DNA of 64,000 nt from Lineus longissimus (taxonomy: Eukaryota > Nemertea > Pilidiophora > Heteronemertea > Lineidae): NCBI RefSeq assembly GCF_910592395.1, contig NC_088317.1:18832039-18896038 (forward strand), read 5' to 3'. The notes beneath the pieces were generated by a model that saw nothing but the letters and a program-made list of their open reading frames with translations, was not told the DNA's origin and did no database searches. Shown here piece after piece: positions 2,131-41,460 of this stretch; position 1 is the stretch's first letter; every line of letters begins with the position of its first letter. The translations under genes and the position numbers were made by a program.

Positions 2131-2205
2131 GTGCATGATGTCAATCCAAGTTGTTCTGTGAATGTGTCCTTTTATATTCTCGTTGAAGGTGACGAAGCCA
2201 ACGTG

Positions 2206-12059: not shown

Positions 12060-13211
12060 ATGCACACAGGCCATGTAAACACAACAACGACAAGTGTCGA
12101 AATGAATACAGGCATTTCCTCAACGGTCCTGACGATAATACCCGAAAGCGCTGAAACTGATGACGTCATCCTCAATCTTCGGCAGGCCGTCGCCATATTC
12201 CAGGCCTATATCCTCATCATCGTCATCTGTGTTGGACTATTCGGAAATGTCCTCTCCATCGTGATATTTACGATTAACAAGAAGCGCGACATGGTCTCCG
12301 CTCAGTATCTACGGGTGCTCGCCGTGACCGACTCGGGCATATTGCTCTTTGTCGGGCTCAGATTGTTCATATCGCGGGGAGTGCCACATGCCCTTGGATA
12401 CCAAGTTGGGTTCGACCTAATTGTTAAAGCAATCGCAGCCTGTAAGATATTTCGCTTTTTAGAACATCTCAGTATGTTTTTGTCCGCCATGTTGATCGTT
12501 TTATTCTCCGCAGAGCGTGTTTTCGCCGTCTGGCTGCCACTCAAAATGGCAGAGTTTACCGCTAGGCGCCGCTACATAGCTATCACATCCCTAGTTGTCG
12601 TCGGGGTTTTGATGAAATCGCATATTCTGGCTTTTTTCACAATTAATATCAGGGAAGGTTACCATAGCTGCTGGTACCCAATAAGCACGCCAGAAACTGT
12701 AAAAATACCACTCTCACTTTATGACATTGTCCCGAGTCAAATCATTCCATGTTTTCTAATTTTCGCGCTGAATATATTTATTTGCATCGGCATCAGACGC
12801 TCGCGTCTAACAGTCACTCTCGGCACTAAAGAGGAGCTGAAACGTTATAAACGAGACATGCGGTGCATTGGTAACCTCTTGTTTGTGTCTACTGTGTATT
12901 TCATCTTCACAACGCCAAGATCGGTTCTATGGCTTTATACTGGCATTCTCACCTTCATTGTCGCTAAACAGGATACAACTGTGAACGATCAACATTTGAC
13001 AACCATGTATGAAATAGCACTTTTTGCAGACTCGCTGACCACCTTTAACTATTGCTTGAACTTTATCATTTATGGCGTATCGCTGAACTATTATCGCGAG
13101 ACAATGAAAGATATTATTTTTTGCAAGACAAAAACGAAATTTAGCCAACAGAGCGAAGTTGAATCGGAAGTTGTCAACAGTAGAACTCCACATGTTCAGC
13201 AACGTTTGTGA
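12060..13211 (+). CDS. Rhodopsin-class G-protein-coupled receptor, peptide-receptor-like, intronless
   Basis: A 383-residue single-exon seven-helix receptor. The extracellular N-terminus has an NTT sequon. Helix 1 carries GN at 62-63; helix 2 LAVTD with Asp91; Cys128 at the start of helix 3 pairs in principle with Cys204 in loop 2 (HSCWY). Helix 3 ends ERV (152-154) rather than DRY. Helix 6 has TTP at 284-286 without the usual CWxP, and helix 7 reads NFIIY (334-338) instead of NPxxY. Length and basic loop 3 fit small-peptide receptors of the FMRFamide/myosuppressin-like group, but ligand assignment is inference. It lies convergent with channel gene A. Three 5'-truncated copies occur at 22129, 31520 and 40953. 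Confidence 0.85.
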   Translation: MHTGHVNTTTTSVEMNTGISSTVLTIIPESAETDDVILNLRQAVAIFQAYILIIVICVGLFGNVLSIVIFTINKKRDMVSAQYLRVLAVTDSGILLFVGLRLFISRGVPHALGYQVGFDLIVKAIAACKIFRFLEHLSMFLSAMLIVLFSAERVFAVWLPLKMAEFTARRRYIAITSLVVVGVLMKSHILAFFTINIREGYHSCWYPISTPETVKIPLSLYDIVPSQIIPCFLIFALNIFICIGIRRSRLTVTLGTKEELKRYKRDMRCIGNLLFVSTVYFIFTTPRSVLWLYTGILTFIVAKQDTTVNDQHLTTMYEIALFADSLTTFNYCLNFIIYGVSLNYYRETMKDIIFCKTKTKFSQQSEVESEVVNSRTPHVQQRL

Positions 13212-13497
13212 CGCCCCACGTATCTCAAACTGATTCCATGTCATTCTCTTTGGATGGCGGTAATTTGTAAGACCAGTTACAGATTTAAACCGATCCAAAT
13301 ATATATGTGCCAAGGACGACTCTTTGTCTTATATTGCACAACCCAGAGTTATGTTTTTACACTCATATTACACACTGACGAGTGCAAAAGAGTGACAATT
13401 ATCGATTTATTTTTCGTGACCTAAATATAATTTTACGATTAATTGTCTCGCCAGACACGTTTATCACTTTGAAAAACCATTAACATATATATATGTC

Positions 13498-13503
13498 AAT
13501 AAA
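13498..13503 (+). promoter_or_regulatory. Polyadenylation signal of the GPCR
   Basis: AATAAA lies 287 bases after the receptor stop codon, in an AT-rich 3' region. It is also present in the truncated copies. Confidence 0.5.
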
Positions 13504-13564
13504 AGTGAGGACTTCTGATCAATCGATTTGCATGTATCTAACTATTTTTTTTTCACAAGTTCAA

Positions 13565-13778
13565 AATTCTGAAAATTTTTCGAAGCCAAATTTTTTGGGG
13601 GGCTGATGATGATGTTTCTTCATTTTGAGAAGAAAAAAAACAAGTGAAAAAAATATTTGGACTCCGACATTTTTTCATCCTTCTGATTCTGAAAAAGTTT
13701 CAAAGCAAAAAAAGCTTTGGGGCTGATGATGTTTTTTCATTTTGAGCAGAAAAAAACAAGTGAAAAAATATTCGGAGT
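13565..13778. repeat. Two-unit imperfect direct repeat downstream of the GPCR
   Basis: Two roughly 105-bp AT-rich units share TCTGAAAA, GGGGCTGATGATG, TTCATTTTGAG, ACAAGTGAAAAAA and an ATATTTGGA/ATATTCGGA end. Both units are conserved in all four duplicates (near 22997, 32388 and 41816). Confidence 0.7.
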
Positions 13779-14905
13779 ATTTAGGTACCAAGCATGCAGC
13801 TCCTTAATTCCCTGCCTGACGCTAGCAAGTAAGGCCATCGTGCCTGCTGGAAGACTGTTCACAACAGATAGGACAAAACAACTTGATTGAAGAACCATAA
13901 CACTGGCATGACAGTTGCTGATTGCATTTATTTATAGTTTAAGACTCAAGCGATTATACATATAATATATGAGGAACTTAATAAATTGAAATGAAATAAA
14001 GCTATACCTATGTTGTACATATCAATTCACCTTGTCATTTTATTTGAAGACGACTGTGCTTCTTGATTGCTGCACCTGTTGAACAAAACTAACAGGTGAC
14101 CTCCCCGGGATACTTCAAATATTACAAAAAAGAAATGTCTTTGAAATAGGCAGGCTGGCCTGTGTTAGGTAAGGTGGGCCTTTGAATGTCGAAAGTACCG
14201 AAAAGATTCTTATACCATTCCTAGCTAAGATCTGAGAACCAAAAATCTTTCAGGGATCTTATAAATAATGTACATGCAGACAGGATTAAATTACAGTATA
14301 ATCTTGATATTTTCGACCTAGGCTGGAAAGTCGAATGCGAAAATGGTGAATGATCTTTGTTTTTCTGGTAAAGGAAAACACTAAGTACAAACCACAATAC
14401 TCTTAAGGGACGAATGTAGTACACTTAACTCTGTGGTGGTGCAATGTAGTTCTTAACACACAAACTATGTACTAGGTAGGGTGGGGTGGAACGTATCAAA
14501 TACAATAACGGGAACTTAACAACATGACGCCGGAATAATGCTTGCTAGTTCTGATATCTAACATTAAACAACAAATGTGGTGCTGCAATGCCGTGACGTG
14601 GTTTCAAACATTTACAATAGCATGTCATTTGTTAGTGTAGTTCTTACCAAAGCTGGTGATAACTATATGAAAAAACACTAACAAATAGTGCGGGTATAAT
14701 GTACATTACGTGAAAATAAGCAAATTTGATTAGTTTATAATTGACCAAAATCGATGCAGACGACATTTATGTAACTTCAGAAATTCCAAAACTCCTCTTT
14801 CATTCCTTTAAAAGCACTGCCCAAGTTTTCACGAACTTGTAATATTTTTATACATTATTGTAAGTAACAACATCCTGGAGATGTTAGTTAAAAAGTGCAT
14901 TTCAG

Positions 14906-17900
14906 CTAAGCGTGAGATGTCTTCTCCAAATCCGTGTAGCCAGACACTTTGGAAGTGATGGAGAAGATAGCAGAATATCTTCTTCCCTTTTCTTCTTCGC
15001 TGTAACCAGTGCTGTATGGCTGTTCAGTGTCCATGGCAGAGATTCTACTCAAGATTCTATTCGCTTTGGTGTTGGCCGCTGCATGATTCGTCTTGATGTT
15101 TCTTCCGATGAAGTAAAATATCTCCAGTATAGTGAGGAATGAGCCGCCAAGGAACAGGCCAGCTGTACCACCAATATCACCTTATGGAAAGACAATAAGC
15201 AGGGCATTGTATAACCTTATTAGGGTAGAAGACATCCAGTAGTCGTTACGAAGTTTACGCCAATCATACAATTAAATACCTAGTTTTGACTTCAATTAGT
15301 CAATCGATCAAAAATGCATTAAGAGAGTGCTTGCGCGAATAATGGAAAGATCTTAACATAAGCACTCCCGAAACATCTTTTGTTATAGAGATGAGTGAAA
15401 ACCAACGTCAATGTATACCCGACCAGCAGGGTGGTGGATCACATATGGTTCATAAAAACGGAGAAGCTATGATTCAGTTCGATCACAACCTGATCAAGAT
15501 TGTCATGGACAGAGAGTCTTGGATCGCCTAATTGACTCTGTTTCCTGTTACTTACATAACAATGAAAACCAGGTGTAAGCCGGTGACTTGATAACTTCGG
15601 TTAGGCTAAGACTCTGGTAAAACACTTGAAGGGCTAGAATATTTTGCCTGCAAAAATCATAACAGACGTATACTTTTATCAACATCAATGAAACTGAATA
15701 ATCATATGTTGAAAGCGTATGCTGTATCACCGTTAATTGCCTGTACTGAACAAGGAAGAACTTGTTCATGGAATAGATCTTGTTTTGATATTTTTCCCGT
15801 CTCCGCCGCCGAGAACCTTACGTGGATTGATATGATCATTCTACTTTATTTGCTGAAACCGAAAGATCAGCCAGCACTATCAACAGCTTTTATGCAGCTT
15901 TTGGTCTCAATGTGTAATTTTAAACCACAAGTTGGCGAGTATTATGTCATTCTTGCTCCACTGTACTTACCGTACCATGGTATGGTCGATCGTGAGAGTT
16001 TTATTAAACTTCACCAAATCATTGAGAAACGTATCAAGCTCTTGAAGGAAATCATCAGTTGCCTTTTGTACTTTTGGGATCAGATAATAGAGGGCGCCAA
16101 TGGTCTTGTCCAGTGATCGCAGCATTGGTAGCAAAGTTTTTCCTTGGGTGTCTATCATTTTAGCTAATACAGGTACATCCGTCCGAACAGCAATCACAGC
16201 ATCATAAGTCTGCTGGATGCTCTTCAAATCCGACTTCGTGCCATCGATCTTACGCAGGATGTCAATCAAGACGACACTCCCACGAACATAGCTGGTGATC
16301 TTATATCGAAACTTCGAAGCTGGGGTGACCAGTTCGATGAGCCTTTCCTTCGTAATCGTCTGCCAGATCGGGATTAGGTCAAACGCTCTTTTCTCAACAT
16401 CCGTGAAGAACTTCTCAACGGAATCAACGCTGTAGGCTTTCATCGCCCTTTCGTAATTAGCAATGTTGGTGCCAACTTCGTGAAGGAAATATGCAAGCTT
16501 TTCGTCTCTCGCTTTCAGTGTGGAAATTGAACCTGCCAGCGCGACACTGACTGTGTTCATCGCGTCCCTAAGTCCAGTAACAGCCGTCCGAAAGTTGGTC
16601 AGCGACCTCCTTATGTCATTGGTCTGTTTTTCCAACTTGCTGTACAAGTCCTGTTCCTCAGATTTACTCACCGTTGTCAGCGTTCTGGCCAGAGTCTGAA
16701 AGGCAGACATCTTCTTTCGTAAATCAATTCCTTTGGTGGAAAATTCAAAAAGGGCATAAAATATCTCTCGGTTCTTTTGACGGATGATTCCCCTTGGGAC
16801 AGGAAGGCCATCGACAATGGTACCGCCAGCTACCAATAATCCCCTAACTTCTGTGTTGTACATCTTGTCAACTGAATATATTAAATTGATTGATTCCTGA
16901 AAATATATCGCCAGTAGCCCCTGCAAGCTCGCGACAGCCTTTCGAGAATTGCCATCCATCTTGAAAAACACTATTTTCAGCTTGGCTGGTAGAATGGTCC
17001 TCTGCAAATTCCATGTTCGTATTTCTAGCTTGACCAATTGTGGTTCGAGATAGTTCTCAATGGTTTGAACCCTGAAAACAATGTTGTAGTTCTTCGTCAG
17101 CAGCTTGATGTAAAATTGGAGATGGAAGTTCAAGTTTCTGAGTTCTCTCTGTACGGCCTTAACAGCAACATCGATAGTGGACATATTGCTTCTTAACGGT
17201 TTCTGGACGCTCTCGTGTAAATAGTTAGAGGCCTGATGAAGTTTCCTAAGCAAGTTGAGGTCATTCTTAACTGTTCTTTTATCCACCAACTGCCTGAGGA
17301 GTAAAGCTTTCTTGTAGCGTTCCAGGAGTGTCTTGTCTGATTCGAGAATATCAATTATGGAGAAGATACTTGTGGCAGAGAGGTCGGTGTTGGACAATGT
17401 AGTCGTAAACTCATCTTGGTAACAGGGATGAGTGCAGGTGTGGGCGAATGTACGAGCGCCTGAAAAAAATGCATCATATAAATTCCTAAGCAATAGTGAG
17501 AGATATGGACCATTGTACCTTGAGCTGGCTAGTGTGTGGCCAACAAGTAAAACCGCCCAATGAAATGTCATTTGAGCAATGTCTGGCCGCGGGTCGAGGG
17601 ATTTCAGGCCCAAACGTGTCAAGTACAATCAACAGTCAAATATCATTTTTTAGTTAATATTCGCAATACAAAGTGAGGGTTGGTAACTAAAACATGCACG
17701 ATCTCTAATGAATGACACCCGCCCTGTTGAGTGTCGATTATTCTTTCTGATGAAATCATCTTCACAGCCCTACTGTTCTCAGTGTTCTCGAATCATATTC
17801 ACTCTGGGAAGTAGAAAAGCACTGTGAGTGTCTAAGACAAATGAACGGGGGGAAAACGATTTCTCGAACTTACTGACGTCACTGCAACATCCATACAAGG

Positions 17901-20368
17901 TCGACAGGTTACAATACGGTGGCTTGTCGGGTCCAACCCATCTCTGTCCGTACTCGATACAACCACATATCTCAGCTGTTGCGTTGGTCTTCACCTCAGC
18001 CAGGCACGCTTGGAAGGAGTAGGCATTGTAGTCCCTCAAGGATTGAGATGCGCAGTCTCCGTGAGGCTTAGGCAGTCGTGTGACCTAGAAAAGTACGTAT
18101 ACTTGTGGTTGTAGAATCAGCCTGGTTATCAATTCATATTATTATTGAGATCTCGATCCCAGGAGAATTCATGAAGTATGGACAATTTGTATACATGTTC
18201 ATGAGCATCCATGACAAGATTCTTGTAGGATTCATAGTTAAAATGAAAATAAGAATCTTACAGGAACCCTGTAAATATTGTATATGCACATGTACACGAA
18301 ACTGAATAAAATCTTAACTAAGAATCTTATACGAATTTTCCACCATAGCTGCACTTGACCTGACTTTGCACCAGAGCCGAGATTCAAGAGGCTAGAATGC
18401 CAATAATACATTGAAGAAACAAATCAATATATGATCATTAATGATACTTACGCTCGAGATATGCAAGGCAGCTCTAGAAGCTCCAAACACTGGCACCGCC
18501 GTGCCTAAATCTGACACCCGAGGATGGTCATGGCCATTGAATATCAACACCTGGATTCCCGATGATAAGTGAGGGCCTGGCGAGAGTTCATAAACCTCGG
18601 CGTTAAGGTACAACTCGAGCCCGAATGATGCCCCTGAAACACTTAACTTGAGTTATTCTCGAGGCAAAGCTAAGCGGCTAGGCGCATCGAGACAATATGT
18701 ATCTAAAGACTGAACAGCTTCATCTTGGAATCATGCCATGATCGCCTTGACATGCTTGATAAAAGAGGAGAATTTACGAAAGGTTGGTGGTATAATTGCT
18801 CATTGGATATCCCAGATCGAAAATCCTGATATCATGATTCTTATAATGGTTCTTAACTAAGCTATAATTCTTATTCGGGTACAAGATCATTTACGATCTT
18901 TGCAAGATTCTTAAAATATTCTGGTTAAATATCTTCACAATGAATGTTAAAATGAAAAAATCCTGATAAAGAATTTTGAAAATCGTATCTGAATGCATGG
19001 CCCTCTGATAGCCAGTACTAACCTGTATTTTGGACTTCAAAATCTTTCGGATCTCTGACGGATTTGTTGGCATGGAGATCATTAAACACGAAACAAACCC
19101 CGAAATCCGTCATCATCTGTGTGAAATTCACGTGGCTACAGTTATGCCCTTTCCACACACATCTGCAAGAAATTGGTGTCGTTTGTAAATGAGGATAATA
19201 GTTGCGATCCTTAGGTCAATCAAATCCCAAGATTTTCTCACATGCTGCCCAATTAAAGGTAAAATGCCGACCTGAAAGATTGGAAAGGTGATTTCTTCCT
19301 CTATATGTCGATGAGCTGGTATGGTTTCTTAGGACGCTGATGATAGGAATGGGATAAAATGAAGGATCAATAAACGCAAGATAGGTCAATCATGGAAATA
19401 ATATTTTACTTCTTGATCATGTCCTCCTTCCTGTGTGCCATGTCCAGCATAGTCTGGGTGATATTCAGGTCATCTGCTAAAGTGATGTTCCTTCTCGCGT
19501 TCAGGTCAGCTCCGTAGAATTCTTGCAGCTTTCTGTAAATACCGGCTTCTAGTGCTTTGGTCATTCTGAAATTGGTATTGAGTACTTTTAAATCCGACTG
19601 GTAAGATAAAGTGAGCTTTGCAATTTCCTAAACTTTTTATGGCAATTTTCAAAAAGAGATCTTCACCTACTTAGTAACAAATTAGTCAAAAGCAGATGGT
19701 TACACTAGGAATCCCCACCTGAATTGGTTGGTGTTGCAGATGGCAACACTAGGGAATCTTACCTGAACTGGTTGGTGTTGCAGATGGCCACACTAGGGAA
19801 TCTGAGTGAATTGTTATATGCTACATTCATGTCGACAGTGACAGGGTTTTTCTGGTAGTACGCTGCTCTCTCCCCAACTTGGTAGGTAAACCAAATGGCA
19901 AATGCGATCACAACTAACAGCCACAGTGTCCTGAAAAAAAATACCGCAGAGAGTGATCGAGGTCATGCTCAGGTTATGGTATCTTTTCCACAGGGTGAAA
20001 ATGGTAAAAACATTTAGCAACGAAAACAATTTTCAGGTAGAGAATGACAAAATTCTTAACGTGGAAGTTATGATCAAAGGAAATAATTAACAATAACGTT
20101 TAGGGATTTAAAAGTATTCAAAACAAAATAAAAATAGAAATAGAGTTGAGTTGAGTTATCTATAAGATAAAATAACAACATTCGTTTTGGTTTTATGGGC
20201 CTGGTTACCACGGTATTTAAATATATATACTCACCGCCCAAGGAAGGTCCCGGCCTCAAATGTGTATCTAACTCCATGAAAACTTGTGTTTTCCGTGAAG
20301 TTCTTGAGGAAGTCATACGTTTTCTCTTTGCACCCTTTCCTGGTATCAGACTTTTCAGGGTCAGCCAT
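14906..20368 (-). CDS. DEG/ENaC-family ion channel with giant extracellular insert, copy A
   Basis: Nine exons in coding order: 20235-20368, 19763-19930, 19410-19565, 19023-19162, 18452-18633, 17874-18084, 15971-17459, 15556-15647, 14906-15180. The sum is 2847 nt (948 aa), with every phase consistent. The cytoplasmic N-terminus has the TSFHG gating motif. TM1 is about residues 47-65, followed by FPSVAICNTNQF. The extracellular part shows WKGHNCS, DFGVCFVFN, GLELYLNAEVY, TRLPKPHGDC, AYSFQACLAE, CGCIEY, PPYCNLSTLYGCC and CTHPC (339-343). About 465 cysteine-free, helix-rich residues follow (roughly 355-820) inside one exon. The normal ending resumes with NILALQVFYQSLSLTE and KSPAYTWFSLLC; TM2 is DIGGTAGLFLGGSFLTILE (859-877) with GGS as selectivity filter. 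Ser occupies the degenerin position. Trimeric cation channel function is known for the family; the gating stimulus is unknown. Confidence 0.93.
15971..17459 (-). other. Insert-bearing exon 7 of channel copy A
   Basis: This 1489-nt exon encodes residues 331-827. Its first 30 or so residues (ARTFAHTCTHPCYQDEF...) and the following exon are ordinary DEG/ENaC sequence; the interior is not. The acceptor is TTTTTTTCAG and the donor is CG|GTAAGT. The interior has no cysteine, several sequons (NMS, NKT), and amphipathic Leu/Ile/Lys patterns typical of long helices. No homology to a named domain was recognised by eye. Confidence 0.85.
18205..18335. repeat. Dispersed AT-rich repeat in the intron between exons 5 and 6 of channel A
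   Basis: Contains AAGATTCTTG, TAAGAATCTTACAGG, TGTATATGCACATGTACA and TCTTAACTAAGAATCTTA, the words of the family that forms the array at 61693. Equivalent copies are near 27637, 37029 and 46480. Unit D keeps an extra AAAAATCCCGATA edge near 46422 that A-C lack. Confidence 0.6.
19717..19804. repeat. 44-bp repeat carrying the exon 2 splice donor, two units (copy A)
   Basis: Units begin at 19717 and 19761 with ACCTGAAYTGGTTGGTGTTG. On the - strand each unit contains the last codons of exon 2 (ICNTNQF) and an AG|GT donor. The exon-proximal unit gives GTAAGA and the outer unit GTGGGG. Use of the outer donor would add 44 nt and shift the frame. Confidence 0.9.
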
Positions 20369-20823
20369 CGTAGATAAAACAATATAATACTCAGGAACTT
20401 TTGTCAGTTTTTTCTCAAGATCCTCGTCTGATTTAAATTCTAATTCTTGAAACGGCTAACGGTTTTATTCAGATTGATTATTCCAAGTCCTCCCAAATAT
20501 CGCCTCTTCTTCTTCTTCACATTATTAACGGGCTGGTAATTGAATTTTTCCTATCATTGAACACGTTGAAAGATCAATTTTAATCGTCTTCAGTTAGACA
20601 GAGATTACAAAAAATCTTTAAAACGTCACATAATTTCTCTATCGAATTTCTATCGATTCTTTTAGAATTTCATTGATTATATAGAATATTCAAAGTTGGC
20701 TTTCATAAGAGTTTAAACCGTATTAATCCACAGAATCTATCTATAGAATCTACAAAATATTTTACACAAACTTTTGTCTGTGTCAAGCGACTCAAACCTC
20801 GTGGCTTTCGCTACGTTCTGAGT

Positions 20824-20843
20824 CCAACTGTCCAAACAGTTGG
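20824..20843. promoter_or_regulatory. Perfect inverted repeat upstream of channel A (putative)
   Basis: CCAACTGT-CCAA-ACAGTTGG forms an 8-bp stem with a 4-base loop about 455 bp upstream of the channel start codon. It is conserved in all four units. A regulatory role is only a possibility. Confidence 0.25.
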
Positions 20844-21762
20844 TCGAGTTTTACATCATAATAAAAGTATTCCTAATATGGTAATGGTCGACAAAGGAAA
20901 CGGTACTTCGGTTGATGACACATTGCCATGGAGAAGGAAGGATGTTTAATCTTGTAACCATGTCGAGTTAGTTTAATCGTACTTTTCAATTAAACCAAAT
21001 TGCGTCGTCCATTATTTCATTTTGGATGGGTTGAATAACATATTGTTCATTCATTCATTCACTATCCTAATTGGATTGCTACTTTGGAATAAAATATCAA
21101 TTTGAAAAATACTAATAAATCCTCTTTTATAGTATTGTTATCTATGAATTGTATTCATTTATCATTGCCTCATCTATTACAGCGAGGAAATCTATCATAT
21201 ATTGGTCCGATGAGCATGTTGAATAAGTGAATAATTCTGAATAACTAACTAACTGGATCATTATAACACATCATTAAACCAAAATTTTAATAGCGGGAGA
21301 TATTTCAAATTGCAGTAAATTGTTCTACCTGCCAATCCTCTCGATTATTCATGTGATTATTCGTCAACACTGCCGTTTATTATATCATGCTTCCAAGAAT
21401 TCGCTATCCAATTAATAAATTGGTAAATGCACTTGCTGTTCACATTGATTCCACCCCTGTACAAGGACCTGCCTTTGTTCTACCCCTCAATCGGTAGGTG
21501 AACTAGTATATGCGTCCAGTCCATTCAATAACATGTACAGCTCGAAAGCAACCATTTCCTTCAAGTGGATTACTTAAGACGATTTAGAGAAAGTTCCTTA
21601 CGGAAGTGCATAATTTTGGATATGGAAGAAGTTATTGTGAAACCGTTTCAACACCTCTGTTAGGCCATCTCCCTGGTTTTGCATCGAATGGGCGCAAGGA
21701 ACTACTAAACCACTTAACTACTCAAGAATCTTGTTCACAATTCGCAAGCTTAGAAAAAAACC

Positions 21763-22071
21763 ATGATGCCAACTTCTGATCACGGGTCATATTCCATATT
21801 TATCTCAGGGAAACTGAATGAGCAGCATTTTTCGCTAATCGTAGGACGAATAGCCATGTTATCCTTACTAGAATGCAGTGTAATATGTACCACAAGTCCT
21901 GACTGCCGAGCGTATCACTTCAAAACACTGCCTAATAGCAGGTTCTGTCGAATAGATGGAGACTTGGTCGGGCCTCTGTCCCTGGCTGTACCAGGTGAGA
22001 GGAAAAGCACTCGGAGACACGATGACGTAAAGCTGTACAACATACTCCATTTGACGGGCCTCGTAGTGTAA
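21763..22071 (+). pseudogene. Truncated PAN-like exon fused to upstream-GPCR sequence (A/B junction)
   Basis: The first 52 codons match the N-terminal exon of the intact PAN-like gene at 52041 up to CRAYHF. They then continue in frame into the orphan candidate exon segment seen at 11707 (KTLPNSRFC...), ending after 102 codons. The remaining PAN exon and its donor are lost. The join lies in a CAA shared by both parents. The chimera is probably a non-functional duplication scar, although it stays open in all three copies. Confidence 0.75.
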
Positions 22072-22128
22072 CATAGCGTGTATGGGCATCTCTGCATGCA
22101 GCTCTTCGCACCACATGATGCTACTGGT

Positions 22129-22633
22129 ACCACTCTCACTTTATGACATTGTCCCGAGTCAAATCATTCCATGTTTTCTAATTTTCGCGCTGAATATATT
22201 TATTTGCATCGGCATCAGACGTTCGCGTCTAACAGTCACTCTCGGCACTAAAAAGGAGCTGAAACGTTATAAACGAGACATGCGGTGCATTGGTAACCTC
22301 TTGTTTGTGTCTACTGTGTATTTCATCTTCACAACGCCAAGGTCGGTTCTATGGCTTTATACTGGCATTCTCACCTTCATTGTCGCTAAACAGGATACAA
22401 CTGTGAACGATCAACATTTGACAACCATGTATGAAATAGCACTTTTTGCAGACTCGCTGACCACCTTTAACTATTGCTTGAACTTTATCATTTATGGCGT
22501 ATCGCTGAACTACTATCGCGAGACAATGAAAGATATCATTTTTTGCAAGACAAAAACGAATTTTAGCCAACAGAGCGAAGTTGAATCGGAAGTTGTCAAC
22601 AGTAGAACACCACATGTTCAGCAACGCTTGTGA
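22129..22633 (+). pseudogene. 5'-truncated GPCR copy B
   Basis: Corresponds to residues 217-383 of the receptor at 12060: helices 5-7 and the C-terminal tail. A 792-bp deletion (11915-12706 of unit A) removed the N-terminus and helices 1-4. The remaining frame is open and by chance joins an upstream ATG at 22082, giving a 183-codon frame. It lacks the G-protein receptor core, so it is called a pseudogene. Confidence 0.85.
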
Positions 22634-24334
22634 CGCCCCACGTATCTCAAACTGATTCCATGTCGTTCTCTTTGGGTGGCGGTAATTTGTAAGACCAGTT
22701 TCAGATTTAAACCGATCCAAATATATACCGTATGTGCCAAGGACGACTCTTTGTCTTAAATTGCGCAACCCAGAGTTATGTTTTTACACTCATATTACAC
22801 ACTGACGAGTGCAAAAGATTGACAATTATCGATTTATTTTTCGTGACCTAAATAGAATTTTACGATTAATTGTCTCGCCAGACACGTTTATCACTTTGAA
22901 AAACCATTAACATATATATATGTCAATAAAAGTGAGGACTTCGACTGATCAATCGATTTGCATGTATCTAACTATTTTTTTTTCACAAGTTCAAAATTCT
23001 GAAAATTTTTCGAAGCCAAATTTTTTGGGGGGCTGATGATGATGTTTCTTCATTTTGAGAAGAAAAAAAACAAGTGAAAAAAATATTTGGACTCCGACAT
23101 TTTTTCATCCTTCTGATTCTGAAAAAGTTTCAAAGCAAAAAAAGCTTTGGGGCTGATGATGTTTTTTCATTTTGAGCAGAAAAAAACAAGTGAAAAAATA
23201 TTCGGACTATTTAGGAACCAAGCATGCAGCTCCTTAATTCCCTGCCTGACGCTAGCAAGTAAGGCCATCGTGCCTGCTGGAAGACTGTTCACAACAGATA
23301 GGACAAAACAACTTGATTGAAGAACCATAACACTGGCATGACAGTTGCTGATTGCATTTATTTATAGTTTAAGACTCAAGCGATTATACATATAATATAT
23401 GAGGAACTTAATATATTGAAATGAAATAAAGCTATACCTATGTTGTACATATCAATTAACCTTGTCATTTTATTTGAAGACGACTGTGCTTCTTGATTGC
23501 TGCACCTGTTGAACAAAACTAACAGGTGACCTCCCCGGGATACTTCAAATATTACAAAAAGGAAATGTCTTTGAAATAGGCAGGCTGGCCTGTGTCAGGT
23601 AAGGTGGGCCTTTGAATGTCGAAAGTACCGAAAAGATTCTTATACCGTTCCTAGCTAAGATCTGAGAACCAAAAATCTTTCAGGGATCTTATAAATAATG
23701 TACATGCAGACAGGATTAAATTACAGTATAATCTTGATATTTTCGACCTAGGCTGGAAAGTCGAATGCGTAAATGGTGAATGATCTTTGTTTTCTGGTAA
23801 AGGAAAACACTAAGTACAAACCACAATACTCTTAAGGGACGAATGTAGTACACTTTACTCTGTGGTGGTGCAATGTAGTTCTTAACACACAAACTATGTA
23901 CTAGGTAGGGTGGGGTGGAACGTATCAAATACAATAACGGGAACTTAACAACATGACGCCGGAATAATGCTTGCTAGTTCTGATATCTAACATTAAACAA
24001 CAAATGTGGTGCTGCAATGCCGTGACGTGGTTTCAAACATTTACAATAGCATATCATTTGTTAGTGTAGTTCTTACCAAAGCTGGTGATAACTATATGAA
24101 AAAACACTAACAAATAGTGCGGGTATAATGTACATTACGTGAAAATAAGCAAATTTGATTAGTTTATAATTGACCAAAATCGATGCAGACGACATTTATG
24201 TAACTTCAGAAATTCCCAAACTCCTCTTTCATTCCTTTAAAAGCACTGCCGAAGTTTTCACGAACTTGTAATATTTTTATACATTATTGTAAGTAACAAC
24301 ATCCTGGAGATGTTAGTTAAAAAGTGCATTTCAG

Positions 24335-27300
24335 CTAAGCGTGAGATGTCTTCTCCAAATCCGTGTAGCCAGACACTTTGGAAGTGATGGAGAAGATAGC
24401 AGAATATCTTCTTCCCTTGTCTTCTTCGCTGTAACCAGTGCTGTATGGCTGTTCAGTGTCCATGGCAGACATTGTACTCAAGATTCTATTCGCTTTGGTG
24501 TTGGCCGCTGCATGATTCGTCTTGATGTTTCTTCCGATGAAGTAAAATATCTCCAGTATAGTGAGGAATGAGCCGCCAAGGAACAGGCCAGCTGTACCAC
24601 CAATATCACCTTATGGAAAGACAATAAGCAGGGCATTGTATAACCTTATTAGGGTAGAAGACATCCAGTAGTCGTTACGAAGTTTACGCCAATCATACAA
24701 TTAAATACCTAGTTTTGACTTCAATTAGTCAATCGATCAAAAATGCATTAAGAGAGTGCTTGCGCGAATAATGGAAAGATCTTAACATAAGCACTCCCGA
24801 AACATCTTTTGTTATAGAGATGAGTGAAAACCAACGTCAATGTATACCCGACCAGCAGGGTGGTGGATCACATATGGTTCATAAAAACGGAGAAGCTATG
24901 ATTCAGTTCGATCACAACCTGATCAAGATTGTCATGGACAGAGAGTTGTCATGGATCGCCTAATTGACTCTGTTTCCTGTTACTTACATAACAATGAAAA
25001 CCAGGTGTAAGCCGGTGACTTGATAACTTCGGTTAGGCTAAGACTCTGGTAAAACACTTGAAGGGCTAGAATATTTTGCCTGCAAAAATCATAACAGACG
25101 TATACTTTTATCAACATCAATGAAACTGAATAATCATATGTTGAAAGCGTATGCTGTATCACCGTTAATTGCCTGTACTGAACAAGGAAGAACTTGTTCA
25201 TGGAATAGATCTTGTTTTGATATTTTTCCCGTCTCCGCCGCCGAGAACCTTACGTGGATTGATATGATCATTCTACTTGATTTGCTGAAACCGAAAGATC
25301 AGCCAGCACTATCAACAGCTTTTATGCAGCTTTTGGTCTCAATGTGTAATTTTAAACCACAAGTTGGCGAGTATTATGTCATTCTTGCTCCACTGTACTT
25401 ACCGTACCATGGTATGGTCGATCGTGAGAGTTTTATTAAACTTCACCAAATCATTGAGAAACGTATCAAGCTCTTGAAGGAAATCATCAGTTGCCTTTTG
25501 TACTTTTGGGATCAGATAATAGAGGGCGCCAATGGTCTTGTCCAGTGATCGCAGCCGTGGTAGCAAAGTTTTTCCTTGGGTGTCTATCATTTTAGCTAAT
25601 ACAGGTACATCCGTCCGAACAGCAATCACAGCATCATAAGTCTGCTGGATGCTCTTCAAATCCGACTTCGTGCCATCGATCTTACGCAGGATGTCAATCA
25701 AGACGACACTCCCACGAACATAGCTGGTGATCTTATATCGAAACTTCGAAGCTGGGGTGACCAGTTCGATGAGCCTTTCCTTCGTAATCGTCTGCCAGAT
25801 CGGGATTAGGTCAAACGCTCTTTTCTCAACATCCGTGAAGAACTTCTCAACGGAATCAACGCTGTAGGCTTTCATCGCCCTTTCGTAATTAGCAATGTTG
25901 GTGCCAACTTCGTGAAGGAAATATGCAAGCTTTTCGTCTCTCGCTTTCAGTGTGGAAATTGAACCTGCCAGCGCGACACTGACTGTGTTCATCGCGTCCC
26001 TAAGTCCAGTAACAGCCGTCCGAAAGTTGGTCAGCGACCTCCTTATGTCATTGGTCTGTTTTTCCAACTTGCTGTACAAGTCCTGTTCCTCAGATTTACT
26101 CACCGTTGTCAGCGTTCTGGCCAGAGTCTGAAAGGCAGACATCTTCTTTCGTAAATCAATTCCTCTGGTGGAAAATTCAAAAAGGGCAAAAAATATCTCT
26201 CGGTTCTTTTGACGGATGATTCCCCTTGGGACAGGAAGGCCATCGACAATGCTACCGCCAGCTGCCAATAATCCCCTAACTTCTGTGTTGTACATCTTGT
26301 CAACTGAATATATTAAATTGATTGATTCCTGAAAATATATCGCCAGTAGCCCCTGCAAGCTTGCGACAGCCTTTCGAGAATTGCCATCCATCTTGAAAAA
26401 CACTATTTTCAGCTTGGCTGGTAGAATGGTCCTCTGCAAATTCCATGTTCGTATTTCTAGCTTGACCAATTGTGGTTCGAGATAGTTCTCAATGGTTTGA
26501 ACCCTGAAAACAATGTTGTAGTTCTTCGTCAGCAGCTTGATGTAAAATTGGAGATGGAAGTTCAAGTTTCTGAGTTCTCTCTGTACGGCCTTAACAGCAA
26601 CATCGATAGTGGACATATTGTTTCTTAACGGTTTCTGGACGCTCTCGTGTAAATAGTTAGAGGCCTGATGAAGTTTCCCAAGCAAGTTGAGGTCATCCTT
26701 AACTGTTCTTTTATCCACCAACTGCCTGAGGAGTAAAGCTTTCTTGTAGCGTTCCAGGAGTGTCTTGTCTGATTCGAGAATATCAAGTATGGAGAAGATA
26801 CTTGTGGCAGAGAGGTCGGTGTTGGACAATGTAGTCGTAAACTCATCTTGGTAACAGGGATGAGTGCAGGTGTGGGCGAATGTACGAGCGCCTGAAAAAA
26901 ATGCATCATATAAATTCCTAAGCAATAGTGAGAGATATGGACCATTGTACCTTGAGCTGGCTAGTGTGTGGCCAACAAGTAAAACCGCCCAATGAAATGT
27001 CATTTGAGCAATGTCTGGCCGCGGGTCGAGGGATTTCAGGGCCAAACGTGTCAAGTACAATCAACAGTCAAATATCATTTTTTAGTTAATATTCGCAATA
27101 CAAAGTGAGGGTTGGTAACTAAAACATGCACGATCTCTAATGAATGACACCCGCCCTGTTGAGTGTCGATTATTCTTTCTGATGAAATCATCTTCACAGC
27201 CCTACTGTTCTCAGTGTTCTCGAATCATATTCACTCTGGGAAGTAGAAAAGCACTGTGAGTGTCTAAGACAAATGAACGGGGGGAAAACGATTTCTCGAA

Positions 27301-29759
27301 CTTACTGACGTCACTGCAACATCCATACAAGGTCGACAGGTTACAATACGGTGGCTTGTCGGGTCCAACCCATCTCTGTCCGTACTCGATACAACCACAT
27401 ATCTCAGCTGTTGCGTTGGTCTTCACCTCAGCCAGGCACGCTTGGAAGGAGTAGGCATTGTAGTCCCTCAAGGATTGAGATGCGCAGTCTCCGTGAGGCT
27501 TAGGCAGTCGTGTGACCTAGAAAAGTACGTATACTTGTGGTTGTAGAATCAGCCTGGTTATCAATTCATATTATTATTGAGATCTCGATCCCAGGAGAAT
27601 TCATGAAGTATGGACAATTTGTATACATGTTCATGAGCATCCATGACAAGATTCTTGTAGGATTCATAGTTAAAATGAAAATAAGAATCTTACAGGAACC
27701 CTGTAAATATTGTATATGCACATGTACACGAAACTGAATAAAATCTTAACTAAGAATCTTATACGAATTTTCCACCATAGCTGCACTTGACCTGACTTTG
27801 CACCAGAGCCGAGATTCAAGAGGCTAGAATGCCAATAATACGTTGAAGAAACAAATCAATATATGATCATTAATGATACTTACGCTCGAGATATGCAAGG
27901 CAGCTCTAGAAGCTCCAAACACTGGCACCGCCGTGCCTAAATCTGACACCCGAGGATGGTCATGGCCATTGAATATCAACACCTGGATTCCCGATGATAA
28001 GTGAGGGCCTGGCGAGAGTTCATAAACCTCGGCGTTAAGGTACAACTCGAGCCCGAATGATGCCCCTGAAATACTTAACTTGAGTTATTCTCGAGGCAAA
28101 GCTAAGCGGCTAGGCGCATCGAGACAATATGTATCTAAAGACTGAACAGCTTCATCTTGGAATCATGCCATGATCCCCTTGACATGCTTGATAAAAGAGG
28201 AGAATTTACGAAAGGTTGGTGGTATAATTGCTCATTGGATATCCCAGATCGAAAATCCTGATATCATGATTCTTATAATGGTTCTTAACTAAGCTATAAT
28301 TCTTATTCGGGTACAAGATCATTTACGATCTTTGCAAGATTCTTAAAATATTCTGGTTAAATATCTTCACAATGAATGTTAAAATGAAAAAATCCTGATA
28401 AAGAATTTTGAAAATCGTATCTGAATGCATGGCCCTCTGATAGCCAGTACTAACCTGTATTTTGGACTTCAAAATCTTTCGGATCTCTGACGGATTTGTT
28501 GGCATGGAGATCATTAAACACGAAACAAACCCCGAAATCCGTCATCATCTGTGTGAAATTCACGTGGCTACAGTTATGCCCTTTCCACACACATCTGCAA
28601 GAAATTGGTGTCGTTTGTAAATGAGGATAATAGTTGCGATCCTTAGGTCAATAAAATCCCAAGATTTTCTCACATGCTGCCCAATTAAAGGTAAAATGCC
28701 GACCTGAAAGATTGGAAAGGTGATTTCTTCCTCTATATGTCGATGAGCTGGTATGGTTTCTTAGGACGCTGATGATAGGAATGGGATAAAATGAAGGATC
28801 AATAAACGCAAGATAGGTCAATCATGGAAATAATATTTTACTTCTTGATCATGTCCTCCTTCCTGTGTGCCATGTCCAGCATAGTCTGGGTGATATTCAG
28901 GTCATCTGCTAAAGTGATGTTCCTTCTCGCGTTCAGGTCAGCTCCGTAGAATTCTTGCAGCTTTCTGTAAATACCGGCTTCCCGTGCTTTGGTCATTCTG
29001 AAATTGGTATTGAGTACTTTTAAATCCGACTGGTAAGATAAAGTGAGCTTTGCAATTTCCTAAACTTTTTATGGGAATTTTCAAAAAGAGATCTTCACCT
29101 ACTTAGTAACAAATTAGTCAAAAGCAGATGGTTACACTAGGAATCCCCACCTGAATTGGTTGGTGTTGCAGATGGCAACACTAGGGAATCTGAGTGAATT
29201 GTTGAATGCTACATTCATGTCGACAGTGACAGGGTTTTTCTGGTAGTACGCTGCTCTCTCCCCAACTTGGTAGGTAAACCAAATGGCAAATGCGATCACA
29301 ACTAACAGCCACAGTGTCCTGAAAAAACAAAATACCGAAGAGAGTGATCGAGGTCATGCTCAGGTTATGGTATCTTTTCCACAGGGTGAAAATGGTAAAA
29401 ACATTTAGCAACGAAAACAATTTTCAGGGAGAGAATGACAAAATTCTTAACGTGGAAGTTATGATCAAAGGAAATAATTAACAATAACGTTTAGGGATTT
29501 AAAAGTATTCAAAACAAAATAAAAATAGAAATAGAGTTGAGTTGCGTTATCTATAAGATAAAATAACAACATTCGTTTTGGTTTTATGGGCCTGGTTACC
29601 ACGGTATTTAAATATATATACTCACCGCCCAAGGAAGGTCCCGGCCTCAAATGTGTATCTAACTCCATGAAAACTTGTATTTTCCGTGAAGTTCTTGAGG
29701 AAGTCATAGGTTTTCTCTTTGCACCCTTTCCTGGTATCAGACTTTTCAGGGTCAGCCAT
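24335..29759 (-). CDS. DEG/ENaC-family ion channel with giant extracellular insert, copy B
   Basis: Exons in coding order: 29626-29759, 29151-29318, 28842-28997, 28455-28594, 27884-28065, 27306-27516, 25403-26891, 24988-25079, 24335-24609. Exon lengths are identical to copy A, so 948 residues are predicted with all signature motifs (TSFHG, FPSVAICN, CTHPC, GGS filter). Exon 7 differs from A by about nine residues (for example LLRKL to LLGKL, MLRSL to RLRSL). Exon 3 has Arg where A has Leu in KALEAG. Exon 2 uses the GTGGGG donor because only one 44-bp donor unit is present. Confidence 0.92.
29149..29192. repeat. Exon 2 donor 44-bp unit, single copy (copy B)
   Basis: Only one unit is present, starting at 29149, so the exon must use AG|GTGGGG, the donor that is the outer one in copies A, C and D. 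Confidence 0.85.
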
Positions 29760-31153
29760 CGTAGATAAAACAATATAATACTCAGGAACTTTTGTCAGTT
29801 TTTTCTCAAGATCCTCGTCTGATTTAAATTCTAATTCTTGAAACGGCTAACGGTTTTATTCAGATTGATTATTCCAAGTCCTCCCAAATATCGCCTCTTC
29901 TTCTTCTTCACATTATTAACGGGCTGGTAATTGAATTTTTCCTATCATTGAACACGTTGAAAGATCAATTTTAATCGTCTTCAGTTAGACAGAGATTACA
30001 AAAAATCTTTAAAACGTCACATAATTTCTCTATCGAATTTCTATCGATTCTTTTAGAATTTCATTGATTATATAGAATATTCAAAGTTGGCTTTCATAAG
30101 AGTTTAAACCGTATTAATCCACAGAATCTATCTATAGAATCTACAAAATATTTTACACAAACTTTTGTCTGTGTCAAGCGACTCAAACCTCGTGGCTTTC
30201 GCTACGTTCTGAGTCCAACTGTCCAAACAGTTGGTCGAGTTTTACATCATAATAAAAGTATTCCTAATATGGTAATGGTCGACAAAGGAAACGGTACTTC
30301 GGTTGATGACACATTGCCATGGAGAAGGAAGGATATTTAATCTTGTAACCATGTCGAGTTAGTTTAATCGTACTTTTCAATTAAACCAAATTGCGTCGTC
30401 CATTATTTCATTTTGGATGGGTTGAATAACATATTGTTCATTCATTCATTCACTATCCTAATTGGATTGCTACTTTGGAATAAAATATCAATTTGAAAAA
30501 TACCAATAAATCCTCTTTTATAGTATTGTTATCTATGAATTGTATTCATTTATCATTGCCTCATCTATTACAGCGAGGAAATCTATCATATATTGGTCCG
30601 ATGAGCATGTTGAATAAGTGAATAATTCTGAATAACTAACTAACTGGATCATTATAACACATCATTAAACCAAAATTTTAATAGCGGGAGATATTTCAAA
30701 TTGCAGTAAATTGTTCTACCTGCCAATCCTCTCGATTATTCATGTGATTATTCGTCAACACTGCCGTTTATTATATCATGCTTCCAAGAATTCGCTATCC
30801 AATTAATAAATTGGTAAATGCACTTGCTGTTCACATTGATTCCACCCCTGTACAAGGACCTGCCTTTGTTCTACCCCTCAATTGGTAGGTGAACTAGTAT
30901 ATACGTCCAGTCCATTCAATAACATGTACAGCTCGAAAGCAACCATTTCCTTCAAGTGGATTACTTAAGACGATTTAGAGAAAGTTCCTTACGGAAGTGC
31001 ATAATTTTGGATATGGAAGAAGTTATTGTGAAACCGTTTCAACACCTCTGTTAGGCCATCTCCCTGGTTTTGCATCGAATGGGCGCAAGGAACTACTAAA
31101 CCACTTAACTACTCAAGAATCTTGTTCACAATTCGCAAGCTTAGAAAAAAACC

Positions 31154-31462
31154 ATGATGCCAACTTCTGATCACGGGTCATATTCCATATTTATCTCAGG
31201 GAAACTGAATGAGCAGCATTTTTCGCTAATCGTAGGACGAATAGCCATGTTATCCTTACTAGAATGCAGTGTAATATGTACCACAAGTCCTGACTGCCGA
31301 GCGTATCACTTCAAAACACTGCCTAATAGCAGGTTCTGTCGAATAGATGGAGACTTGGTCGGGGCTCTGTCCCTGGCTGTACCAGGTGAGAGGAAAAGCA
31401 CTCGGAGACACGACGACGTAAAGCTGTACAACATACTCCATTTGACGGGCCTCGTAGTGTAA
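31154..31462 (+). pseudogene. Truncated PAN-like exon chimera (B/C junction)
   Basis: Same structure as the A/B junction chimera: PAN start up to CRAYHF, then KTLPNSRFC..., 102 codons. It differs by one residue (GALSL instead of GPLSL). Confidence 0.75.
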
Positions 31463-31519
31463 CATAGCGTGCATGGGCATCTCTGCATGGAGCTCTTCGC
31501 ACCACATGATGCTACTGGT

Positions 31520-32027
31520 ACCACTCTCACTTTATGACATTGTCCCGAGTCAAATCATTCCATGTTTTCTAATTTTCGCGCTGAATATATTTATTTGCAT
31601 CGGCATCAGACGTTCGCGTCTAACAGTCACTCTCGGCACTAAAAAGGAGCTGAAACGTTATAAACGAGACATGCGGTGCATTGGTAACCTCTTGTTTGTG
31701 TCTACTGTGTATTTCATCTTCACAACGCCTAGGTCGGTTCTGTGGCTTTATACTGGCATCCTCACCTTCATTGTCGCTAAACAGGATACAACTGTGAACG
31801 ATCAACATTTGACAACCATGTATGAAAGAGCACTTTTTGCAGACTCGCTGACCACGTTTAACTATTGCTTGAACTTTATCATTTATGGCGTATCGCTGAA
31901 CTATTATCGCGAGACAACGAAAGATATCATTTTTTGCAAGACAAAAACGAATTTTAGCCAACAGAGCGAATTAGTTGAATCGGAAGTTGTCAACAGTAGA
32001 ACGCCACATGTTCAGCAACGCTTGTGA
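31520..32027 (+). pseudogene. 5'-truncated GPCR copy C
   Basis: Receptor residues from 217 onward, with the same left breakpoint as copy B. It has a 3-nt insertion adding Leu in the tail (SELVESE), shared with copy D, and substitutions such as YERALF and RETTKD. Helices 1-4 are absent. Confidence 0.85.
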
Positions 32028-33726
32028 CGCCCCACGTATCTCAAACTGATTCCATGTCGTTCTCTTTGGGTGGCGGTAATTTGTAAGACCAGTTTCAGAT
32101 TTAAACCGATCCAAATATATACCGTATGTGCCAAGGACGACTCTTTGTCTTAAATTGCGCAACCCAGAGTTATGTTTTTACACTCATATTACACACTGAC
32201 GAGTGCAAAAGAGTGACAATTATCGATTTATTTTTCGTGACCTAAATTGAATTTTACGATTAATTGTCTCGCCAGACACGTTTATCACTTTGAAAAACCA
32301 TTAACATATAATCGTCAATAAAAGTGAGGACTTCGACTGATCAATCGATTTGCATGTATCTAACTATTTTTTTTTCACAAGTTCAAAATTCTGAAAATTT
32401 TTCGAAGCCAAATTTTTTGGGGGGCTGATGATGATGTTTCTTCATTTTGAGAAGAAAAAAAACAAAATGAAAAAAATATTTGGACTCCGACATTTTTTCA
32501 TCCTTCTGATTCTGAAAAAATTTCAAAGCAAAAAAAGCTTTGGGGCTGATGATGTTTTTTCATTTTGAGCAGAAAAAAAACAAGTGAAAAAATATTCGGA
32601 CTATTTAGGTACCAAGCATGCAGCTCCTTAATTCCCTGCCTGACGCTAGCAAGTAAGGCCATCGTGCCTGCTGGAAGACTGTTCACAACAGATAGGACAA
32701 AACAACTTGATTGAAGAACCATAACACTGGCATGACAGTTGCTGATTGCATTTATTTATAGTTTAAGACTCAAGCGATTATACATATAATATATGAGGAA
32801 CTTAATAAATTGAAATGAAATAAAGCTATACCTATGTTGTACATATCAATTCACCTTGTCATTTTATTTGAAGACGACTGTGCTTCTTGATTGCTGCACC
32901 TGTTGAACAAAACTAACAGGTGACCTCCCCGGGATACTTCAAATATTACAAAAAGGAAATGTCTTTGAAATAGGCAGGCTGGCCTGTGTCAGGTAAGGTG
33001 GGCCTTTGAATGTCGAAAGTACCGAAAAGATTCTTATACCATTCCTAGCTAAGATCTGAGAACCAAGAATCTTTCGGGGATCTTATAAATAATGTACAAG
33101 CAGACAGGATTAAATTACAGTATAATCTTGATATTTTCGACCTAGGCTGGAAAGTCGAATGCGTAAATGGTGAATGATCTTTGTTTTCTGGTAAAGGAAA
33201 ACACTAAGTACAAACCACAATACAATAGGGACGAATGTAGTACACTTTACTCTGTGGTGGTGCAATGTATTTCTTAACACACAAACTAGGGGGCCTGTAG
33301 GGTAGGGTGGAACGTATCAAAAACAATAACGGGAACTTAACAACATGACGCCGGAATAATGCTTGCTAGTTCTGATATCTAACATTAAACAACAAATGTG
33401 GTGCTGCAATGCCGTGACGTGGTTTCAAACATTTACAATAGCCTGTCATTTGTTAGTGAAGTTCTTACCAATGCTGGTGATAACTATATGAAAAAACACT
33501 AACAAATAGTGCGGGTATAATGTACATTACGTGAAAATAAGCAAATTTGATTAGTTTATAATTGACCAAAATCGATGCAGACGACATTTATGTAACTTCA
33601 GAAATTCCCAAACTCCTCTTTCATTCCTTTAAAAGCACTGCCCAAGTTTTCACGAACTTGTAATATTTTTATACATTATTGTAAGTAACAACATCCTGGA
33701 GATGTTAGTTAAAAAGTGCATTTCAG

Positions 33727-39192: not shown

Positions 39193-40586
39193 CGTAGATA
39201 AAACAATATAATACTCAGGAACTTTTGTCAGTTTTTTCTCAAGATCCTCGTCTGATTTAAATTCTAATTCTTGAAACGGCTAACGGTTTAATTCAGATTG
39301 ATTATTCCAAGTCCTCCCAAATATCGCCTCTTCTTCTTCTTCACATTATTAACGGGCTGGTAATTGAATTTTTCCTATCATTGAACACGTTGAAAGATCA
39401 ATTTTAATCGTCTTCAGTTAGACAGAGATTACAAAAAATCTTTAAAACGTCACATAATTTCTCTATCGAATTTCTATCGATTCCTTTAGAATTTCATTGA
39501 TTATATAGAATATTCAAAGTTGGCTTTCATAAGAGTTTAAACCGTATTAATCCACAGAATCTATCTATAGAATCTACAAAATATTTTACACAAACTTTTG
39601 TCTGTGTCAAGCGACTCAAACCTCGTGGCTTTCGCTACGTTCTGAGTCCAACTGTCCAAACAGTTGGTCGAGTTTTACATCATAATAAAAGTATTCCTAA
39701 TATGGTAATGGTCGACAAAGGAAACGGTACTTCGGTTGATGACACATTGCCATGGAGAAGGAAGGATGTTTAATCTTGTAACCATGTCGAGTTAGTTTAA
39801 TCGTACTTTTCAATTAAACCAAATTGCGTCGTCCATTATTTCATTTTGGATGGGTTGAATAACATATTGTTCATTCATTCATTCACTATCCTAATTGGAT
39901 TGCTACTTTGGAATAAAATATCAATTTGAAAAATACTAATAAATCCTCTTTTATAGTATTGTTATCTATGAATTGTATTCATTTATCATTGCCTCATCTA
40001 TTACAGCGAGGAAATCTATCATATATTGGTCCGATGAGCATGTTGAATAAGTGAATAATTCTGAATAACTAACTAACTGGATCATTATAACACATCATTA
40101 AACCAAAATTTTAATAGCGGGAGATATTTCAAATTGCAGTAAATTGTTCTACCTGCCAATCCTCTCGATTATTCATGTGATTATTCGTCAACACTGCCGT
40201 TTATTATATCATGCTTCCAAGAATTCGCTATCCAATTAATAAATTGGTAAATGCACTTGCTGTTCACATTGATTCCACCCCTGTACAAGGACCTGCCTTT
40301 GTTCTACCCCTCAATCGGTAGGTGAACTAGTATATACGTCCAGTCCATTCAATAACATGTACAGCTCGAAAGCAACCATTTCCTTCAAGTGGATTACTTA
40401 AGACGATTTAGAGAAAGTTCCTTACGGAAGTGCATAATTTTGGATATGGAAGAAGTTATTGTGAAACCGTTTCAACACCTCTGTTAGGCCATCTCCCTGG
40501 TTTTGCATCGAATGGGCGCAAGGAACTACTAAACCACTTAACTACTCAAGAATCTTGTTCACAATTCGCAAGCTTAGAAAAAAACC

Positions 40587-40895
40587 ATGATGCCAACTTC
40601 TGATCACGGGTCATATTCCATATTTATCTCAGGGAAACTGAATGAGCAGCATTTTTCGCTAATCGTAGGACGAATAGCCATGTTATCCTTACTAGAATGC
40701 AGTGTAATATGTACCACAAGTCCTGACTGCCGAGCGTATCACTTCAAAACACTGCCTAATAGCAGGTTCTGTCGAATAGATGGAGACTTGGTCGGGGCTC
40801 TGTCCCTGGCTGTACCAGGTGAGAGGAAAAGCACTCGGAGACACGATGACGTAAAGCTGTACAACATACTCCATTTGACGGGCCTCGTAGTGTAA
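40587..40895 (+). pseudogene. Truncated PAN-like exon chimera (C/D junction)
   Basis: Third copy of the chimera, 102 codons, identical in structure to the other two and in protein to the B/C one. Confidence 0.75.
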
Positions 40896-40952
40896 CATAG
40901 CGTGTATGGGCATCTCTGCATGGAGCTCTTCGCACCACATGATGCTACTGGT

Positions 40953-41460
40953 ACCACTCTCACTTTATGACATTGTCCCGAGTCAAATCATTCCATGTTT
41001 TCTAATTTTCGCGCTGAATATATTTATTTGCATCGGCATCAGACGTTCGCGTCTAACAGTCACTCTCGGCACTAAAAAGGAGCTGAAACGTTATAAACGA
41101 GACATGCGGTGCATTGGTAACCTCTTGTTTGTGTCTACTGTGTATTTCATCTTCACAACGCCAAGGTCGGTTCTGTGGCTTTATACTGGCATTCTCACCT
41201 TCATTGTCGCTAAACAGGATACAACTGTGAACGATCAACATTTGACAACCATGTATGAAATAGCACTTTTTGCAGACTCGCTGACCACCTTTAACTATTG
41301 CTTGAACTTTATCATTTATGGCGTATCGCTGAACTACTATCGCGAGACAATGAAAGATATCATTTTTTGCAAGACAAAAACGAATTTTAGCCAACAGAGC
41401 GAATTAGTTGAATCGGAAGTTGTCAACAGTAGAACTCCACATGTTCAGCAACGCTTGTGA
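40953..41460 (+). pseudogene. 5'-truncated GPCR copy D
   Basis: Receptor residues from 217 onward with the shared breakpoint and the SELVESE insertion. It is open to the stop but lacks helices 1-4. Confidence 0.85.

Follow-up and report, generated by a model that had tools for sequence, protein, structure and literature searches.

Tandemly arrayed DEG/ENaC channel genes of the nemertean Lineus longissimus with a large, cysteine-free extracellular insert predicted to be helical

The tandem array and its channel genes

The window analysed here is a stretch of 64,000 nucleotides from the nemertean Lineus longissimus (RefSeq assembly GCF_910592395.1, contig NC_088317.1, positions 18,832,039 to 18,896,038), and it contains four tandem copies of a gene for a channel of the DEG/ENaC family, each with a long additional segment in its extracellular domain (Table 1). 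These insert-bearing channels are a real, conserved and tandemly amplified variant of a known family, distinguished by an unusual extracellular module; the anatomy of the variant is well supported and its structure moderately so, while its function is inferred.

Copy 1 is a nine-exon gene joined in phase, as a preliminary description of this DNA had proposed. All eight introns are bounded by GT..AG, the frame is open over 948 codons plus stop, and the spliced protein matches PF00858 (Pfam ASC) with E=9e-73 and 246 bits, the family cut-off being 23.6 bits. Exon 7, which bears the additional segment, lies exactly at the coordinates first given for it and is bounded in phase by the acceptor TTTTTCAG and the donor GTAAGT. 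Its open run is 495 codons long, whereas 1000 resamples of the exon under a first-order Markov model gave longest runs of at most 213 codons (mean 90), and the exon is open in all four copies, so that the earlier view of the insert as genuine coding sequence holds.

Members of the DEG/ENaC family are marked by a His-Gly motif ahead of the first transmembrane helix (TM1) and by a G-x-S filter in the second (TM2). Both motifs are present in copy 1, as FHG at residues 30-32 and as GGS within the selectivity stretch LFLGGSF; the latter is found in all four copies, and GAS occupies this place in a diverged paralog (P0002, described below). There is one membrane helix at each end of the protein, the two most hydrophobic 19-residue windows of copy 1 beginning at residues 41 (mean hydropathy 1.92) and 864 (1.80). 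The AlphaFold model of copy 1 has helices at 42-72 and 849-890, each within a stretch where the predicted local distance difference test score (pLDDT) is below 50. Between them, the extracellular fold is of the ASIC/ENaC type. Within residues 287-343 (exons 6 and 7), all four copies lack counterparts of C326 and C373 of P0004, an ASIC-like protein from Glandiceps talaboti, and have an extra cysteine, C327. The two missing residues presumably correspond to a disulfide pair of ASIC1, and the alignment suggests that one disulfide may have been lost as a pair.

The presence of four copies was at first missed in the preliminary description. The genes start at 20368, 29759, 39192 and 48685, at spacings of 9391, 9433 and 9493 nucleotides, and each has nine matching exons with no internal stop. 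The repeated units are 97-99% identical across long stretches and about 94.5% identical in a 1.4-kb stretch towards the high end, where a further match of 0.33 kb extends to 49996. An NCBI gene model, LOC135495153 isoform X1, equals spliced copy 2 letter for letter, and because of this identity it supports the splicing proposed here; its name indicates that other isoforms may exist.

Table 1. Features of the channel array (positions within the window)
Feature	Coordinates	Strand	Description
Tandem array	12706..49389	.	spacing 9.4-9.5 kb; each unit has one channel gene plus a G-protein-coupled receptor (GPCR) gene or a piece of one on the low-coordinate side
Copy 1, whole gene	14906..20368	-	nine exons, 948 residues, predicted from DNA
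Copy 1, exons 1 to 9	20368-20235, 19930-19763, 19565-19410, 19162-19023, 18633-18452, 18084-17874, 17459-15971, 15647-15556, 15180-14906	-
Copy 1, exon 7	15971..17459	-	residues 331-827: CTHPC, beta-10 stretch, insert, FNKT and start of next segment
Insert proper, copy 1	16009..17361	-	residues 364-814, 451 codons; cysteine-free, with an almost wholly helical predicted fold
Copy 2	24335..29759	-	nine exons, 948 residues; exon 7 26891-25403; identical to NCBI LOC135495153 isoform X1 (P0001)
Copy 3	33727..39192	-	nine exons, 948 residues; exon 7 36283-34795
Copy 4	43157..48685	-	nine exons, 948 residues, most diverged; exon 7 45713-44225

The receptor sequences of the array differ in extent. An intronless open reading frame (ORF) for a rhodopsin-type GPCR (12030-13208, plus strand; PF00001, E=9e-14) adjoins copy 1. 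Beside copies 2 to 4 there is only the C-terminal part of such a receptor (22067-22630, 31458-32024 and 40891-41457, plus strand), preceded by other open-frame sequence; of these three pieces, the domain scan covered the one at 22067. In copies 1, 3 and 4, exon 2 ends in a 44-bp tandem duplication of 2.5 to 3.5 units that also takes in the donor (19692-19803, 38516-38627 and 47971-48126), and in copy 4 part of the exon-2 end, with a possible donor, recurs at 48038-47998.

Extent, predicted fold and position of the insert

The last extracellular cysteine ahead of the insert in copy 1 is C343, within CTHPC, and the next cysteine of the protein is C858. From C343 to the segment LQVFYQSL there are 489 residues in copy 1 versus 38 in P0004, and thus about 451 residues are extra, in keeping with the cysteine-free extracellular insert of the preliminary description. 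Cysteine is likewise absent from the insert in the other three copies, in P0002 and in the portion covered by P0007, a further paralog. At the base of the insert, a sequon of the form FNKT or FNKS is kept in all four copies, P0002 and P0007.

The helical character that had been proposed for the insert is upheld as a prediction. Its hydrophobic residues recur with a period of 3.53 residues per turn, and AlphaFold, applied to the 948-residue monomer, models the insert with moderate to low confidence as a nearly all-helical module, predicted to be a set of long antiparallel helices. The module contains no Pfam domain above cut-off: the scan of exon 7 listed nine families, the best of which, Baculo_PEP_C, reached 19.7 bits against a cut-off of 38. 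Nor was an internal repeat found when residues 364-560 were compared by profile with residues 560-814 (probability 1%). It is unlikely that the insert crosses the membrane, as its most hydrophobic 19-residue window averages 1.36 (copy 1) or 1.51 (copy 4), below the values of the two membrane helices.

In ENaC, the thumb consists of helices alpha-4 and alpha-5 and the knuckle of alpha-6, with strand beta-10 connecting the two (excerpts of PMC6197857 and PMC9052164). The knuckle is a single helix that forms a collar together with the neighbouring finger. Excision of the insert from the worm protein leaves flanks that a profile alignment matches to ASIC2 over SKTSAKYLEKKFNKSEKYISEN with two gaps, each of one residue. 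The worm FNKT falls five residues before the FNKS of ASIC2 in that alignment, and a second alignment sets FNK on FNK at the cost of a four-residue gap, so that the graft point is inexact to the residue. The full-length model has a strand at residues 346-355, after the CTHPC cysteines, and structural alignments match model residues 83/84 to 357/363 with residues 82 to 381/387 of ASIC1, ending where the insert starts. Because these alignments end at ASIC1 381-387, past beta-10, the insert is assigned to the knuckle and so to the top of the trimer; as judged from alignment and model, it follows strand beta-10 and precedes the segment FNKT..NILALQVF. Sequence and structure agree on this placement, though the model is poor there (pLDDT below 50 for residues 332-392). 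The alignment to ASIC2 and the structural alignments to ASIC1 are the grounds for rejecting the thumb, from which the insert had been thought to project.

Similar comparisons can be extended to known systems. With the insert excised, the best sequence matches in the PDB are ASIC2 (E=6e-43), ASIC5 (E=8e-38) and ASIC1 (E=2e-37), and ASIC1 occupies ranks 1-13 of the fold search (structures compared: 2qts, 6l6p and 9mky); the worm channel differs from these in its approximately 451 extra knuckle residues and in the LFLGGSF selectivity stretch of the four copies. The modules added to the EGAS channels of Caenorhabditis elegans are EGF-type and cysteine-rich and lie elsewhere in the chain, unlike the cysteine-free module at the knuckle. 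EGAS proteins resemble the worm channel as DEG/ENaC members that have gained a module (excerpts of PMC10424705). FaNaC (7yvb, 8on7) is also a spiralian DEG/ENaC channel, and its peptide pocket, built from finger helices, the beta-6/7 loop and the adjacent subunit's alpha-6, adjoins the position of the worm insert. However, the sequence match to FaNaC is weaker than to ASICs (7yvb, E=1e-26), and the excerpts on FaNaC mention no comparable module.

Outside this family, the predicted fold of the insert bears a weak likeness, in its long antiparallel helices, to the four-helix-bundle sensors of bacterial chemoreceptors (McpZ, Tsr, Tar, Vc1313), but no sequence relation to them was found and the Z score is one that helical bundles can attain simply through sharing a common arrangement. 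A bacterial origin of the insert was considered and rejected: in a contig scan with two short peptide patterns, none of 90 matched stretches was confirmed, a weak test in that only one pattern lies in the insert.

Paralogs, rate of change and possible roles of the insert

Two further loci of L. longissimus carry the insert. P0002 (939 residues; PF00858, E=4e-74) is a diverged paralog with the same insert, on a contig equal in length (19,406,143 bases) to that of LOC135495153, and P0003 (336 residues) and P0007 (495 residues), which share a contig of 16,304,662 bases, correspond to the beginning and the end of the gene. About 70 residues between the latter two are in neither, and from their sequences the pair looks like a single locus annotated as two genes. 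The insert is thus present at three places, namely the array, P0002 and, on another contig, the locus of P0003/P0007. No relatives of the insert were found outside L. longissimus, the insert search having retained 2 of 7992 scored candidates; the searches require exact words in common and lengths within a fixed range, so that distant carriers can escape them, and other nemertean genomes lay outside them. Searches with the N-terminal channel part and with a channel-only profile retained 2 of 1140 and 5 of 4740 candidates, respectively. The three non-Lineus matches to the channel part are ASIC-like by name and 30-32% identical, one from Glandiceps talaboti and two from Diadema antillarum.

The preliminary description knew of no DEG/ENaC channel with such architecture, and among the open-licence literature matches listed, and in excerpts of the papers cited here and of PMC10148893 and PMC9234716, there is likewise no description of a nemertean DEG/ENaC with a large insertion in the knuckle or extracellular domain. 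Literature queries on McpZ sensor domains and on nemertides together with ENaC returned nothing. L. longissimus is among the transcriptomes of an eLife survey of ASICs (PMC9949801, in excerpt).

When copy 1 is compared with P0002, 185 of 451 insert positions (41%) are identical, with one gapped column, as against 281 of 360 channel positions before the insert and 64 of 91 after it. The insert, maintained as protein at a nearly fixed length, is thus coding sequence, and it changes faster than the channel. Among the four copies, 50 of 451 insert codons vary versus 20 of 497 elsewhere (P=3e-5). Relative to copy 4, exon 7 shows 47-56 changes and the remaining exons together 10-12, and the introns diverge unevenly, by 2.6-2.8%; the pattern may reflect gene conversion. 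Over residues 343-820, copy pairs 1-2 and 1-3 have 10 and 11 non-synonymous changes, with one synonymous change each. Pairwise ratios run from 0.97 to 3.2 in the insert and from 0.14 to 0.93 in the N-terminal channel part, on few changes. Positive selection on the insert is not claimed, as the ratio over four copies is about neutral and does not differ significantly from that of the channel.

A module at the knuckle could receive its input from a ligand, from force or from a partner subunit, given that the peptide pocket of FaNaC adjoins this corner and that a knuckle asparagine of alpha-ENaC is reported to be important in the shear response. Tentatively, with a probability of roughly 0.4, the insert can be regarded as an extracellular input domain, most likely one that recognizes a ligand. 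Ligand recognition is favored on the ground that, in a locally amplified family with a conserved channel core, it is the module that changes fastest. In the trimer, three helical modules would seat on the finger-knuckle collar, near a neuropeptide site of the FaNaC type (finger helices and the alpha-6 of the neighbor), and serve as the input domain; binding of a ligand or surface partner to the module could then shift the collar, and hence the thumb and the pore. It is possible, if doubtful, that Lineus-line nemerteans possess a new class of DEG/ENaC receptor, in which a helical sensor, either of foreign origin or newly evolved, was inserted into the knuckle next to the finger/alpha-6 site, and in which the resulting ligand-gated channels were amplified in tandem while the sensor diversified in the manner of chemoreceptor families. 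A natural graft of 450 residues would show that this point of the knuckle, a corner linked to FaNaC peptide binding and to the shear response of alpha-ENaC, accepts a whole domain. Such a channel would allow the control of gating by the collar to be tested and could reveal a receptor class specific to the lineage; its near-identical copies, with most of their differences in the module, lend themselves to comparison.

Several observations weigh against a ligand-recognizing input domain. On ligand binding by FaNaC, the distal finger moves and alpha-6 is described as relatively static, so coupling through alpha-6 is not a given. Among the four copies, 38 of the 50 varying insert codons are non-synonymous, which is the neutral ratio (P=0.87), and the corresponding 12 of 20 in the channel are not significantly different (P=0.24), the channel's own ratio being marginally below neutral (P=0.06). 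Relaxed constraint therefore fits the insert as well as diversification does. Confidence in the predicted structure, moreover, is moderate in exon 7 (mean pLDDT 65) and low over the whole protein (52.6), with values below 50 around the graft. The neutral ratio would also fit the insert being a passenger, a coding segment that the fold bears under little constraint and that is perhaps removed in some transcripts, with which the isoform X1 label and the annotation of the third locus as two genes would also agree. This is nevertheless improbable, as neither the 41% identity to P0002 over 451 residues with a single gapped column nor the absence of cysteine from every member examined would be expected of an unconstrained segment. 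Far more remote is an error of the gene model, whereby the long exon would be partly intron or part of a neighboring gene: the exon structure of copy 1 is read here from DNA alone, but an open frame of this length in four copies, protein-level conservation in P0002 and P0007 and the identical NCBI model of copy 2 all speak against it.

Two other roles would also make use of the position at the knuckle. Conceivably, though this is rather unlikely, the module is a mechanical tether or spacer that joins the channel to mucus, matrix or an adjacent cell and passes force to the knuckle. Position and length would be suitable, the sequon is kept at the base of the insert, and in alpha-ENaC N312 (palm) and N511 (knuckle) are reported to be important in the shear response, N-glycans having been proposed as tethers (excerpts of PMC7958617); on the other side stand the lack of a Pfam domain above cut-off and of cysteine in the insert and, in our judgment, its amplification and fast change. 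Less likely again is a collar for assembly and partner selection, in which the modules of three subunits pack together and set which copies form trimers. The ENaC knuckle and the neighboring finger do make subunit contacts, according to the excerpts, and pairing rules would be useful given four near-identical copies and their paralogs, yet the changes are scattered along the linear sequence of the insert. Overall, ligand input ranks ahead of a tether, and a tether ahead of an assembly collar.

Other features of the window

Beyond the array, positions 52032-57510 (plus strand) hold two tandem units that are 84% alike over a 1.1 kb stretch; the first contains an ORF with a sub-threshold match to the PAN domain and a 365-codon ORF with no Pfam match. 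A stop-to-stop frame of 528 codons at 2059-3642 (plus strand) is Glu-rich, contains KR/RR sites and has no Pfam match; as a guess, it could encode a secreted precursor. Minisatellite arrays with units of 55 bp and 68 bp occupy 9112-9609 and 61693-62120, respectively.
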